Assembly (NCBI GenBank): GCA_017453125.1
Contig: JAFTKS010000010.1
Span: 1 to 64,000, forward strand
DNA: 64,000 nt
Reading direction: 5' to 3'
Source: Clostridia bacterium
GTDB lineage: Bacteria > Bacillota > Clostridia > Christensenellales > UBA1242
The position numbers were made by a program, and so were the translations under genes. The notes under the pieces are model-generated. The model ran no database searches. It saw only the letters and a program-made list of their open reading frames with translations, and was not told where the DNA came from. Every line of letters starts with the position of its first letter. Position 1 is the stretch's first letter. Shown here piece after piece: positions 434 through 25,938 of this stretch.

Positions 434-1236
434 AAAAAGAGATATCAAGAGAATTCAAAACTTATCTTAGAAAGAAAAGAACACACAAAACAATCGTATT
501 AATTATTCAGATTGGTTTACTTGTAGCTTTAATTTCATTATGGGAAATTCTAGCACAAAGAGGAATAATTGACACATTTATACTTTCGTCCCCTAGCAGA
601 ATTATAAAAACCATTGGTGACCTTTACTTGTCTGGTAGTCTTGCATTGCATATATTCACAACTTTGAATGAGGCTCTAATTGGTTTTGCCATCGCAACCA
701 TTGGTGGATATATTATTGCAATAATTCTATGGTGGAACGAAACATTAAGAAAAATTCTTGATCCATATATTGTAGTTCTAAACTCACTTCCAAAAATTGC
801 ACTAGGCCCTATTATTATAATTTGGGTAGGTGTCGGAACATCTGCCATCGTTACAATGGATATACTCATTATGATTGTGATATCTATCATTACTATGCTC
901 AATGCTTTTAGCCAAATAGAATCTAGCAAAATTATGGTACTCAAAAGTATGGGAGCAAACAAGTTTCAAATACTATTCAAATTAATAATTCCCGGCTCTT
1001 TAAAGGAATTTATTAGTCTTTTAAAAATTAATGTCGGACTTACTTGGGTAGGAACTATTATGGGAGAATATTTGGTTAGCAAAGCAGGTCTTGGATATTT
1101 GATTATTTATGGCAGTCAAATATTTAATCTAGACCTTGTGATGACGGGCACAATTCTACTTTGTATTCTTGCAACCCTTATGTACTTTATTGTTGCAATT
1201 ATTGAAAAAATTGTTAATAAAAGATTTAACAATTAA
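430..1236 (+). CDS. ABC transporter permease, SsuC/TauC type
   Basis: Inner-membrane subunit of about 268 residues with roughly six membrane spans (BPD_transp_1 fold). The cytoplasmic EAA-type loop that contacts the ATPase is seen as SMGANKFQILFKLIIPGSL around residues 170-190. The frame can extend to a TTG at 415, but GTG at 430 is preferred: a GGAG lies 9 nt upstream and the start overlaps the ATPase stop (GTGA). Partner of the preceding ATPase in a nitrate/sulfonate/taurine-family importer. A terminator follows at 1243-1270. Family assignment is firm; the substrate is unknown. Confidence 0.9.
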   Translation: MKKEISREFKTYLRKKRTHKTIVLIIQIGLLVALISLWEILAQRGIIDTFILSSPSRIIKTIGDLYLSGSLALHIFTTLNEALIGFAIATIGGYIIAIILWWNETLRKILDPYIVVLNSLPKIALGPIIIIWVGVGTSAIVTMDILIMIVISIITMLNAFSQIESSKIMVLKSMGANKFQILFKLIIPGSLKEFISLLKINVGLTWVGTIMGEYLVSKAGLGYLIIYGSQIFNLDLVMTGTILLCILATLMYFIVAIIEKIVNKRFNN

Positions 1237-4354: not shown

Positions 4355-4431
4355 GCACTGTTAGCTCAATTGGATAGAGCGTTGGTCTACGGAACCAAAG
4401 GTTAGGGGTTCGACTCCCTTACGGTGCACCA
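4355..4431 (+). tRNA. tRNA-Arg (anticodon ACG)
   Basis: A complete cloverleaf of 77 nt: acceptor stem GCACTGT/ACGGTGC, D arm GCTC/GAGC, anticodon stem TTGGT/ACCAA with loop CTACGGA (anticodon ACG, read as ICG, decoding CGN), T arm AGGGG-TTCGACT-CCCTT. CCA is encoded at 4429-4431. It has its own promoter and a terminator at 4446-4473. The 3' part, from the T-loop through the terminator, is repeated 175 bp downstream (4586-4652). Confidence 0.97.
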
Positions 4432-4445
4432 ATCAAGTATAATAC

Positions 4446-4473
4446 GAACCCAAGTTTTTAGGGTTCTTTTTTT
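4446..4473 (+). terminator. tRNA-Arg terminator (first copy)
   Basis: Stem GAACCC/GGGTTC, 9-nt loop, seven Ts. Its near-copy lies at 4621-4648. Confidence 0.85.
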
Positions 4474-4477
4474 ATTT

Positions 4478-4606
4478 AAGGGAGTCCGGCTTCGCCGTTC
4501 AAGACAATCTCTTGTCTTGAGAACCCCTAACAAGTTAGGGAAGGTATTCGGGACCCCTACCCGAAGATTGACGCTTCGCTTAATGCGACTCCCTTACGGT
4601 GCACCA
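4478..4606 (+). repeat. tRNA-linked multi-hairpin element carrying a tRNA-Arg 3'-end copy
   Basis: This noncoding block lies between two copies of the tRNA-Arg terminator. AAGGGAGTC at 4478-4486 is the antisense of the T-arm 3' strand and pairs with GACTCCCTT at 4587-4595, which continues into a perfect copy of the acceptor 3' strand plus CCA (4596-4606). Inside are consecutive hairpins: 4487-4497 with a TTCG-type loop, 4499-4520 (TCAAGACAA/TTGTCTTGA), 4525-4540 (CCCTAAC/GTTAGGG, both strands matching T-arm sequence) and 4547-4565 (TTCGGG/CCCGAA). The whole is an antisense T-arm followed by a sense T-arm, each interrupted by hairpins. A comparable block follows tRNA-Ser at 25721-25801. Function unknown. 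Confidence 0.8.
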
Positions 4607-4652
4607 ATCAAATATAATATGAGCCCAAATTTTTGGGTTCTTTTTTTATTTT
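4586..4652 (+). repeat. direct repeat of tRNA-Arg 3' end plus terminator
   Basis: This block repeats 4411-4477 with only four substitutions, all transitions, and one single-base deletion. It covers the T-loop end, acceptor 3' strand, CCA, the following A/T stretch and the terminator. The terminator stem is kept as GAGCCC/GGGTTC (one G-T pair). A duplicated tRNA 3' end resembles attL/attR flanks of an integrated element, but the enclosed segment is only about 110 bp. Confidence 0.85.
4621..4648 (+). terminator. second copy of the tRNA-Arg terminator
   Basis: GAGCCC/GGGTTC stem followed by seven Ts; it closes the hairpin element. Bases 4653-4800 after it are A/T-rich and show no gene. Confidence 0.75.
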
Positions 4653-20204: not shown

Positions 20205-20240
20205 CAAAAAAAAGAAATATGACTACAATATCATATTTCT
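20205..20240 (-). terminator. terminator of the InlB-repeat gene
   Basis: Stem AGAAATATGA/TCATATTTCT followed by eight Ts on the minus strand; it overlaps the stop codon region at 20239. Confidence 0.8.
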
Positions 20241-22026
20241 ATAAATCCAATTGCCAACCAGCATATAAAATCATATAAAAATCAGTAATACCCTCAAACT
20301 TCTCAGACGATTCTTCATCAACAACAGTATTTACTTCTACTAATTTTACAAACCAACCCGCAAACTTATATCCGTATTTTGTTGGAGTTGGCAACAACAA
20401 TTCCTCGCCCTCAACAATAACAACTTCTGTTATATCTAAGATTCCACCATTTGCAATCAACTTAACCCTAGCCACATTCTTGCTATAATCTCCCAAAATT
20501 TCAACTAGACCATCATCATTGGAAACATCTTGAATAATCGAATTAACAAGAACCTCTGAACCTATTCTCCAACCACCAAACGATTCATCTTCAACTAATG
20601 TTGTAATGTTTGTAATTTGCAACGATTCAATATCTTTTATTTTGATATTTGCATCATCAACATAAATCCAACTACCATATGCAAACTTACCATAACTAAC
20701 ACCATCAACATACACGCTATACGAATTCAAAACAACGCCATCTATAACAACCTGCATATCACTAGTTATATTTTCAAACACGAATTCGTCATCATTTTTC
20801 ATTGGATACACATAATTGCCATCAGATATTGCATAAACAGAAACACTCGAATTACTGTATGCACTTGACAATGAAATTTTAAAAGATACACTATCTCCAT
20901 AATTTTTCTGAATAGTTTTACTTGCTGTCCAATACTCATCATCAACACTTATAACATACATTCCGTTACTTTTTGGCAAGGTTATTTGATAGACATCTTC
21001 TTGCCAAACAAGAATTAACGATAAGTCTTCTTTTACAACAAATTCTTCAGAATAATATCTTCCTGCAGAATCCTTGATGCCCACCAGACTAAACCCAGCA
21101 CGCTCAAATTTAGGGAATTCCAAACTTTGTCCGTGCAATACAGAATAAACAGAAATCTCTCCATCATTATTATAAGTTATATTATATTTATTAATAGATA
21201 TATTATCTATATAAATAACAACATCTTTAGAAAAATCGGATAATTTAATATTATACAAGTTACCACTTTTTGAAAAATTCAAAACACCACAAGTTGAAGT
21301 AATTGTAACATTAGACTTGTTTACGCTCTCATTTAGAACAAGCTGGATTTCTAAAGGCCTATCAATGCTAGCAAGACCATCTTCAAGTCCTAAAATTTCA
21401 TATTCATTCATATTTGCAAGAATAGAAACATTTACAAAAACAGACTCAAACTTAGGTACCAAATAAATAGTTTCGCCATCATCTACAGAACTAAAATCAA
21501 AATCTTTTAACGCATAAACATTATCACCATTTTTGATTTGCCAATCTGAGAAAATGCAATCAGATTTATTAGGATTTTCTATAAAAACAACGCCAGTTGA
21601 TGTTTCAAGCATTAAACCATCGTCAACAATTTTTATAGTGTTTTTTGAATTTAACGAATATAACATATCGTTATAAGACAAAACGAATGAGTTCTCTACC
21701 CATTTAGCATAGAATGTTATTTCTTCTTCTACAAACATATCCTGAGTCACAAAGTTGCTACCTTTCATATCTAGCGACCAACCCACAAATTCATATCCTG
21801 CTTTTTCAGGATTCTCAGGGAACACAATCTTTTGACCTTTGTAATAAGTTTGAACTATAACATCATCAACGTCTTTCACATATTCCACTCTATAGGTTGC
21901 TACCAATGGCGATTTTTGTATAGCAAAACTTATAGCAAAAATAAGTGATAAAACCACTATAATTGCAATTGTAGATATAATTAATTTAGTTTTTTTTGAG
22001 CAACACCACGATGTAATTTTTTCCAC
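20239..22026 (-). CDS. membrane-anchored InlB B-repeat (Listeria-Bacteroides repeat) surface protein
   Basis: 595 residues. A cytoplasmic basic head and one uncleaved membrane span (about 15-37) are followed by an extracellular part. Beta-grasp InlB B-repeats are seen near residues 45-110 (ending GWSLDMKGSNFV...TFYAKWVE) and at the C-terminus (LPTPTKYGYKFAGWFVKL...YAGWQLDL); degenerate copies lie between. Such repeats usually act as spacers or ligand-binding modules at the cell surface. No sortase motif is present. Start is GTG 22026 after AAAAGGACGAGAA. A good promoter lies at 22092-22120, leaving a 5' leader of about 60 nt with two small hairpins. Confidence 0.85.
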   Translation of the reverse strand: MEKITSWCCSKKTKLIISTIAIIVVLSLIFAISFAIQKSPLVATYRVEYVKDVDDVIVQTYYKGQKIVFPENPEKAGYEFVGWSLDMKGSNFVTQDMFVEEEITFYAKWVENSFVLSYNDMLYSLNSKNTIKIVDDGLMLETSTGVVFIENPNKSDCIFSDWQIKNGDNVYALKDFDFSSVDDGETIYLVPKFESVFVNVSILANMNEYEILGLEDGLASIDRPLEIQLVLNESVNKSNVTITSTCGVLNFSKSGNLYNIKLSDFSKDVVIYIDNISINKYNITYNNDGEISVYSVLHGQSLEFPKFERAGFSLVGIKDSAGRYYSEEFVVKEDLSLILVWQEDVYQITLPKSNGMYVISVDDEYWTASKTIQKNYGDSVSFKISLSSAYSNSSVSVYAISDGNYVYPMKNDDEFVFENITSDMQVVIDGVVLNSYSVYVDGVSYGKFAYGSWIYVDDANIKIKDIESLQITNITTLVEDESFGGWRIGSEVLVNSIIQDVSNDDGLVEILGDYSKNVARVKLIANGGILDITEVVIVEGEELLLPTPTKYGYKFAGWFVKLVEVNTVVDEESSEKFEGITDFYMILYAGWQLDL

Positions 22027-25580: not shown

Positions 25581-25720
25581 CAAAATTTAACAAATATGGA
25601 GAATACTTATTACCGAATAAAAAAACAAAACCTGATGTATTGAAAAAACAATTTCCACCATATTCTCAAAGTTCACTATGATAAAACCCTAGACAGACAA
25701 AGTGTGCAAAATTTGTGACA

Positions 25721-25801
25721 GAGTCGGAGAGATTCGGAGCCGAGCAAAGCGAACGCCCTCGTATAAAAATACGAGTACACTGAAAGAGTGAGAATCTCTC
25801 C
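25721..25801 (-). repeat. tRNA-linked multi-hairpin element carrying a tRNA-Ser 3'-end copy
   Basis: In tRNA-sense (minus) orientation, GGAGAGATTC, the antisense of the tRNA-Ser T-arm 3' strand, begins just after the tRNA terminator (25792-25801). It pairs with GAATCTCTCC at 25726-25735, which continues into CGACTC of the acceptor. The 16 nt at 25721-25736 are identical to tRNA positions 25853-25868. Between the arms are hairpins at 25778-25790 (CACT/AGTG) and 25758-25775 (CTCGTAT/ATACGAG) and a GC-rich segment with TTCGCTTTGC. The plan equals that of the element after tRNA-Arg. The copy ends degenerate (CTGTCACA in place of CCGCCA). Confidence 0.75.
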
Positions 25802-25806
25802 AAAGT

Positions 25807-25841
25807 AAAAAAATAGTAAAACGAAAAAGTTCGTTTTACAT
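25807..25841 (-). terminator. tRNA-Ser terminator
   Basis: A 10-bp stem (GTAAAACGAA/TTCGTTTTAC) followed by ATTTTTTT on the minus strand, 8 bases after the tRNA. Confidence 0.85.
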
Positions 25842-25847
25842 ATTACT

Positions 25848-25938
25848 TGGCGGAGTCGGAGAGATTCGAACTCTCGTGCCGATTACTCGACAAACGCATT
25901 TCGAGTGCGTCCCGGTACGACCACTTCGGTACGACTCC
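25848..25938 (-). tRNA. tRNA-Ser (anticodon CGA)
   Basis: 91 nt, class II. Acceptor GGAGTCG/CGACTCC, anticodon stem ACGCA/TGCGT with loop CTCGAAA (anticodon CGA, codon UCG), a long variable arm (TGTCGA/TCGGCA) diagnostic of serine, T arm GAGAG-TTCGAAT-CTCTC, discriminator G and encoded CCA (25848-25850). Confidence 0.97.

Follow-up and report, generated by a model that had tools for sequence, protein, structure and literature searches.

Hairpin units that copy and mirror part of the tRNA gene they follow stand behind many tRNA genes in a family of small-genome Clostridia, and they look like parts of a system, so far unrecognised, by which movable gene cassettes are stacked there. Two such units lie in the stretch analysed here (the window: 64,000 nucleotides (nt) of contig JAFTKS010000010.1, assembly GCA_017453125.1, from a Clostridia bacterium of the UBA1242 lineage), one behind tRNA-Arg(ACG) and one behind tRNA-Ser(CGA). 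Units measure about 130-250 bp and carry no recombinase gene. We propose, with confidence that is about evenly balanced, that they are the recombination ends of cassettes inserted in tRNA T-loops, at or next to base C56.

The initial annotation had described, on the minus strand, tRNA-Ser(CGA) followed by its terminator, an antisense T-arm, hairpins and a sense copy of the T-arm, and the coordinates agree with that order (Table 1). The sense copy (25736-25721) is identical over 16 nt to tRNA bases 25868-25853, as had been claimed, and no such match arose in 2000 dinucleotide shuffles of the 200 nt downstream, where the longest was 10 nt. The 10-nt antisense match is weaker when taken alone, being attained in 15 of 2000 such shuffles. 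The copy ends in TGTCA in place of the CGCCA of the tRNA, so its CCA end has decayed, again as described. That this is a second element of one plan with that of tRNA-Arg holds, with two corrections: of the antisense T-arm the Ser copy has the 3′ half only, and the hairpin cores of the two elements belong to different sub-types. The Arg element (4477-4606) is the fuller one, with both halves of the antisense and of the sense T-arm, split by hairpins. Coincidence had been thought improbable, rightly, since the plan recurs in this genome (G000 in our numbering) and its relatives behind Arg, Ser, Gly, Lys, Leu, Ile, Met, Tyr, Asn, Trp and other tRNAs. Units were sorted into types by simple motifs of our own choosing, some remaining untyped; near-versions of the type-D core of the Ser element stand behind tRNA-Ser(CGA) in G012 and G009 and behind tRNA-Thr in G003, G007 and G001. 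Tandem arrays, gene cassettes, a usual copy start at C56 and exchange of unit types between species go beyond what had been annotated.

The survey covered G000, which has 37 tRNAs, and tRNAs of relatives from six genomes (about 150 listed of 212 matches) and five more (about 150 listed of 182 matches). Stretches around most of the listed tRNAs were examined; tRNAs with lower scores, a good number of which are Leu or Ser tRNAs, are thinly represented. A unit was called where the 3′ tail of a tRNA recurs 90-420 nt downstream (over 13 nt with one mismatch allowed, or as an exact 13-mer that lies seven bases deeper in the tRNA), the ends of real tRNAs and intact T-arms being excluded. By this tail test units stand at 56 of the 326 tRNA genes examined in eleven genomes of the family. 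None of the 133 tRNAs followed by another tRNA has one, compared with 56 of 193 at the ends of tRNA runs. The source genome, which the initial annotation had proposed to survey, was positive at 10 of 35 tRNAs by this conservative test, and the relatives gave 8/23 (G012), 2/30 (G005), 8/29 (G004), 6/32 (G006), 2/37 (G009), 6/32 (G003), 2/24 (G001), 4/27 (G013), 6/28 (G022) and 2/29 (G020). Tails of non-cognate tRNAs found almost no matches in an earlier version of the test. These counts are low estimates, because the test misses decayed units (at the "empty" Asn locus of G003 and probably at Ser(TGA) of G001 and G006) and missed those at tRNA-Trp and one tRNA-Met of G000, both seen by eye.

In G024, from a different family of the order, the tail test found no unit at 28 tRNAs. 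Beyond these twelve genomes, with one or two tRNAs sampled in each, units were seen in G007, G019, G021 and G032 (the last, from another family of the order, has one unit) and in none of thirteen others. The relatives that bear a name are uncultured, loci with the core belonging to the Clostridiales metagenome-assembled genomes SIG395 and MAG-R023. The two core patterns searched had no match among viral contigs. A type-A unit with fitting arms stands 3′ of the transfer-messenger RNA (tmRNA) gene of G004 (L072, G004:C18, 1058-1408 and downstream), and therefore the T-arm, not decoding, is what counts. We found no description of units of this kind in a literature search that left preprints and most subscription papers outside.

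The arms fit the tRNA they follow. The Ser element had been said to be adapted to its neighbour, and its antisense score is 16 with its own tRNA, and none of 34 other tRNAs scores above 12. We chained two collinear antisense pieces over a longer tRNA stretch, using units with at least five other tRNAs for comparison; the own tRNA was strictly best in 18 of 32 units, with 1.1 expected. The single longest antisense match favours the own tRNA strictly in 19 of 42 and 11 of 32 units, but T-loops resemble one another too closely for so blunt a test. In G013, one unit that follows tRNA-Thr has a better fit to tRNA-Arg(ACG) (19 versus 16), which may mark a move between tRNAs.

The copied part of the tRNA is exactly 21 nt from C56 in 23 of the 42 first units and 13 to 20 nt in the others. 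In the Arg, Gly and both Met units of G000 the antisense halves meet at the same bond, between C56 and R57, and two hairpins are inserted there. The split lies four or five bases off this bond in the Trp and Leu units of the same genome, its Ile unit uses the anticodon arm instead of the T-arm, and its Asn unit leaves the antisense arm unsplit. Most units are predicted to fold with a stem of the antisense and sense 3′ halves enclosing several hairpins; RNA-fold z-scores of 14 seed units run from about -7 to -0.5. Among 12 selected type-A cores (A2 units and one long unit left out of the alignment), the closing pair of hairpin P5 is G-C in 4, T-A in 3 and C-G in 5, with no mismatches.

Such folds could also belong to an RNA: a read-through transcript might use its antisense arms on the cognate tRNA or its precursor, or exert T-box-like control of the next gene. 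The arms are indeed complementary to the cognate tRNA, several units have strong predicted folds (z of -5.7 and -6.4, for example), and a terminator stands ahead of each unit. We nevertheless hold a function in RNA to be decidedly unlikely. Each unit pairs with itself, which closes the arms; the loop and wobble bias described below points to the strand opposite the tRNA; and the same tRNA without a detected unit is common among species. A known structured RNA was set aside after searching Rfam at gathering and relaxed thresholds, as only tRNA was found in the window and only tRNAs scored above gathering in six unit-bearing loci.

Units occur in tandem arrays, and their types change hands in a patchy way. 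Behind tRNA-Ser(CGA) the type is D in G000, G012 and G009, other types stand in G004 and G006, and G005 has none; tRNA-Thr(CGT) has types A1, A2, B, D or none, by species; and types are mixed within single arrays at G007 Thr, G012 Asn and G006 Met. At tRNA-Ser(GGA) of G005, the sequence past the last copy matches the unit-free locus of G000, and the first terminator does not. At tRNA-Asn, the terminator that comes last in G005 matches the one that comes first in G003, both loci being occupied. From the displaced terminators at these two loci we infer insertion upstream of the old 3′ half, an order with which the decayed last copy in the window agrees. Other comparisons of array ends with unit-free relatives were mostly silent, and some matched the first terminator rather than the last.

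Near-perfect palindromes and homogeneous tandem copies might also be by-products of replication error, through palindromic template switching at the T-arm and tandem duplication, with no dedicated recombination; T-arms are inverted repeats themselves. This origin seems to us highly improbable, as the cores kept across different tRNAs, the copy start at C56 and the compensatory pairs need selection or common descent.

Most units and arrays hold no gene, and genes stand between units at few loci. Two near-identical units flank a gene of 235-252 codons with a CBS match at tRNA-Ser(GGA) of G005, and a GNAT acetyltransferase gene on the opposite strand at tRNA-Ser(TGA) of G000; in both cases the gene has the tRNA copy on one side and the second unit's terminator on the other. 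At tRNA-Leu(TAG) of G012 a unit and the 3′ part of a second one enclose a gene of 276 amino acids, and at tRNA-Asn of G000 a gene of 143 amino acids stands ahead of a degenerate copy. Pfam recognised GNAT and CBS only in six cassette open reading frames (ORFs), no recombinase was recognised among the cassette ORFs listed, and a defence-family scan of four cassette proteins gave one match, a weak one, for the GNAT protein. A different kind of insert is found at tRNA-Ser(CGA) of G009 (L236, G009:C4, 679-8956), where about 8 kb separate two unit copies, the second at the contig end. This stretch carries a Ccr-like large serine recombinase and has the look of a common integrative element that lies next to a unit. 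By eye we also named two methyltransferase-like ORFs and an isochorismatase-like ORF in it.

The scarcity of genes fits another reading, in which the units form a mobile satellite of tRNA 3′ ends that is non-autonomous and has no genes of its own, like miniature inverted-repeat transposable elements or repetitive extragenic palindromes (REPs), and is moved by some other enzyme, the genes having come otherwise. Unit types are common to several tRNAs and genomes in a patchy manner, and the serine recombinase and methyltransferases adjoining a unit in G009 indicate that other elements do land there. On the other side, the position of the genes at the Ser loci of G005 and G000, between copy and unit terminator, is cassette order, and the candidate enzyme in G013 is, among the families searched, Xer-like only. 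We regard the satellite as unlikely, if worth keeping in view; elements that copy and mirror their own tRNA would be unusual even so.

Table 1. Features of the two tRNA-linked elements in the window.
Feature	Positions	Strand	Basis
tRNA-Ser(CGA), anchor gene; T-loop the putative insertion point	25848..25938	-	ARAGORN and genome search
Intrinsic terminator immediately 3′ of tRNA-Ser(CGA)	25806..25837	-	sequence
Ser element, RT′: antisense of T-arm 3′ half, GGAGAGATTC	25792..25801	-	10-nt match
Ser element, first hairpin, CACTCTTTCAGTG	25776..25791	-	predicted fold
Ser element, second hairpin, CTCGTATTTTTATACGAG	25758..25775	-	predicted fold
Ser element, conserved type-D core, GGCGTTCGCTTTGCTCGGC	25739..25757	-	comparison with other genomes
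Ser element, RT: copy of tRNA 3′ half from T-loop C56, CGAATCTCTCCGACTC, 16 nt identical	25721..25736	-	
tRNA-Arg(ACG), anchor of first element	4355..4431	+	ARAGORN
Terminator 3′ of tRNA-Arg	4446..4473	+	sequence
Arg element, RT′: antisense of T-arm 3′ half	4477..4486	+	
Arg element, X: two hairpins exactly between the antisense halves	4487..4520	+	predicted fold
Arg element, LT′: antisense of T-arm 5′ half	4521..4531	+	
Arg element, LT: sense T-arm 5′ half	4534..4540	+	
Arg element, conserved type-A core, two hairpins (P5 4547-4565, P6 4567-4584)	4547..4584	+	
Arg element, copy of tRNA 3′ half with CCA, 21 nt identical from C56	4586..4606	+	
Arg element, second, slightly differing terminator copy	4621..4648	+	sequence

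Two further observations stand apart from these arrays. At L075 (G012:C9, about 830-975, minus strand) a truncated tRNA-Thr-like 3′ end is followed by a shortened unit, an arrangement that seems to mark the distal end of some larger element integrated there. In the window, an ORF of 595 amino acids (20239-22026, minus strand) has repeated GYEFVGW...YAKW segments, which presumably resemble InlB-type surface repeats.

If the units are recombination ends, a cassette would be made up of a tRNA 3′ half (CCA included) that replaces the old one, in some cases a gene, a terminator and the hairpin unit. Insertion into the T-loop at or next to C56 would rebuild the tRNA with the 3′ half of the cassette and push the old 3′ half and its terminator downstream, where they would decay, as in the window. 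The unit would act as folded single-stranded DNA, probably of the bottom strand: its antisense and sense T-arm pieces would pair and so imitate a double-stranded T-arm, with the hairpins looped out at the crossover, much as the attC sites of integrons imitate a double-stranded site. Repeated insertion or duplication could build the tandem arrays. A bolder form, which we put forward tentatively and consider doubtful, is that this is a second, independent kind of integron, in which tRNA and tmRNA T-loops would provide many attI-like platforms in each genome, the attC-like site would be recognised by its shape and its match to the tRNA and not by a sequence box, and one host Xer recombinase would stand in for a dedicated integrase.

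The choice of strand has some bearing on this proposal. Hairpin loops of the form G..A number 22 on the bottom strand and 5 on the top (67 distinct hairpins, many of them related, so the counts are not independent), and terminator loops of this form number 3 and 5 of 25 (bottom, top). Single odd pairs are A-C in 10 cases versus G-T in 3, again in related hairpins whose counts are not independent. The loop and wobble bias is a hint from sequence that the strand opposite the tRNA is the favoured one. The bottom strand is also the strand of attC that integron integrases bind (PMC3053210).

For the enzyme we can offer a guess, a candidate by elimination only: a host XerS-like recombinase. Genome G013, with four units, has one PF00589 protein among the families searched, and no RVT_1, resolvase or Y1 transposase match. 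The nearest match of this protein is XerS (189 bits, where the cut-off is 267), and the gene for the protein adjoins an ORF that by eye is LexA-like. A high-scoring PF00589 protein, XerS-like by score, is present in every genome of the family among ten genomes searched, and no such protein was found in G030. The integron integrase IntI (TIGR02249) was not recognised in four proteins scanned, among them the only PF00589 protein of G013; the Xer-like proteins of G005 and G013 scored 63.9 and 71.9 bits, with the cut-off at 265. In G000 the Xer-like gene (L082, G000:C8, minus strand, ORF 1858-2496 and beyond) lies beside lexA-like and miaA-like ORFs.

Other movers were tried and rejected, as none of them accounts for G013. 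Reverse transcriptase (PF00078) has two matches in G000 and none in G012, G013 and G022, all of which bear units; Y1 transposase (PF01797) has one match each in G000 and G012 and none in unit-bearing G013 and G022; resolvase has none in G013; and the IS110 transposase (Transposase_20) has none in G000, where it was sought. The two reverse-transcriptase domains of G000 (C5:2388-3140 and C2:1538-2296) sit in open frames of more than 1200 amino acids. The IS110 family deserves a word for its bridge RNAs, whose guides might happen to fit tRNA T-arms, since split guides flanking a fixed crossover recall the units. With no transposase match in G000 and all four guide pieces pairing together inside the unit, we think this extremely unlikely. 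The order of the pieces in the unit (RT′ LT′ LT RT) also differs from that of bridge RNAs.

Several objections weigh against cassette recombination. First, spread between tRNAs would need an unexplained arm-conversion step, in which the arms are refitted to the new tRNA, because a cassette that brings the 3′ half of one tRNA would disrupt another. Second, 14 of the 32 units are not strictly best with their own tRNA, and 7 of the 14 seed units have z-scores weaker than -3 on at least one strand, the Arg unit of G019 being weakest. Third, arrays are for the most part made of near-identical units, even where a gene lies among them, and could have been produced by tandem duplication together with ordinary gene insertion; several array-end terminators copy the first (Arg, Lys), which duplication explains equally. 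Fourth, we saw no excised circle and no gain or loss at the level of strains. Fifth, the strand bias is only a hint because many hairpins are related. Finally, the presence of a XerS-like protein does not predict units, because G024, without units, also carries one, and in G000 the XerS-like gene contains a TAA in frame, absent from the copies of the relatives and due either to an assembly error or to a recent loss.

Each known system that the units recall differs from them in definite respects. Tycheposons and other integrative elements that target tRNA genes likewise use the tRNA 3′ half as their site, rebuild the tRNA and leave a displaced partial tRNA at the far end; the units are, by contrast, small, lack a recombinase gene, have an internal antisense T-arm with hairpins and form tandem arrays. 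The IS110 bridge RNA shares target-matching pieces on either side of a crossover in a structured stretch, whereas here G000 has no Transposase_20 match, the pieces pair mutually and the tRNA 3′ half is duplicated. REPs and REPINs, like the units, are short palindromic non-coding units spread in a genome, but, unlike those sequences with their Y1 (RAYT) transposases, the units stand only behind tRNA and tmRNA genes here and have arms fitted to each tRNA.

A close likeness is to integrons and to arrays without an integrase (CALINs): the units would belong to cassette arrays with a hairpin site of recombination type at the 3′ end and with optional genes, which stand between units at a few loci only. 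As in attC, sequence is variable and structure conserved, the folded site would imitate a double-stranded one, and the crossover would lie near the 3′ arm. Unlike integrons, the units are anchored at T-loops of tRNA or tmRNA genes rather than at attI, with many anchors per genome; unlike attC, their arms copy the tRNA and extra hairpins would be looped out at the crossover. The attC boxes are R″ (RYYYAAC) and R′ (GTTRRRY), with the crossover in R′, and GTTRRRY occurs within 10 nt of the junction in none of the 42 first units. Since neither this box motif nor, as far as tested, an integron integrase was found, the units are not members of the integron family, though the chances are about equal that they work like attC-type cassette ends at tRNA T-loops. 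Integrons are generally regarded as a single system that has a single enzyme and only one type of folded site. If the units do act in this way, small anaerobes would have a separate solution to gene capture, with cassettes stacked behind many tRNA genes and sites modelled on the tRNA, which would bear on the origin of attC sites and offer a natural case in which to ask if an ordinary Xer recombinase can act on folded single-stranded DNA.
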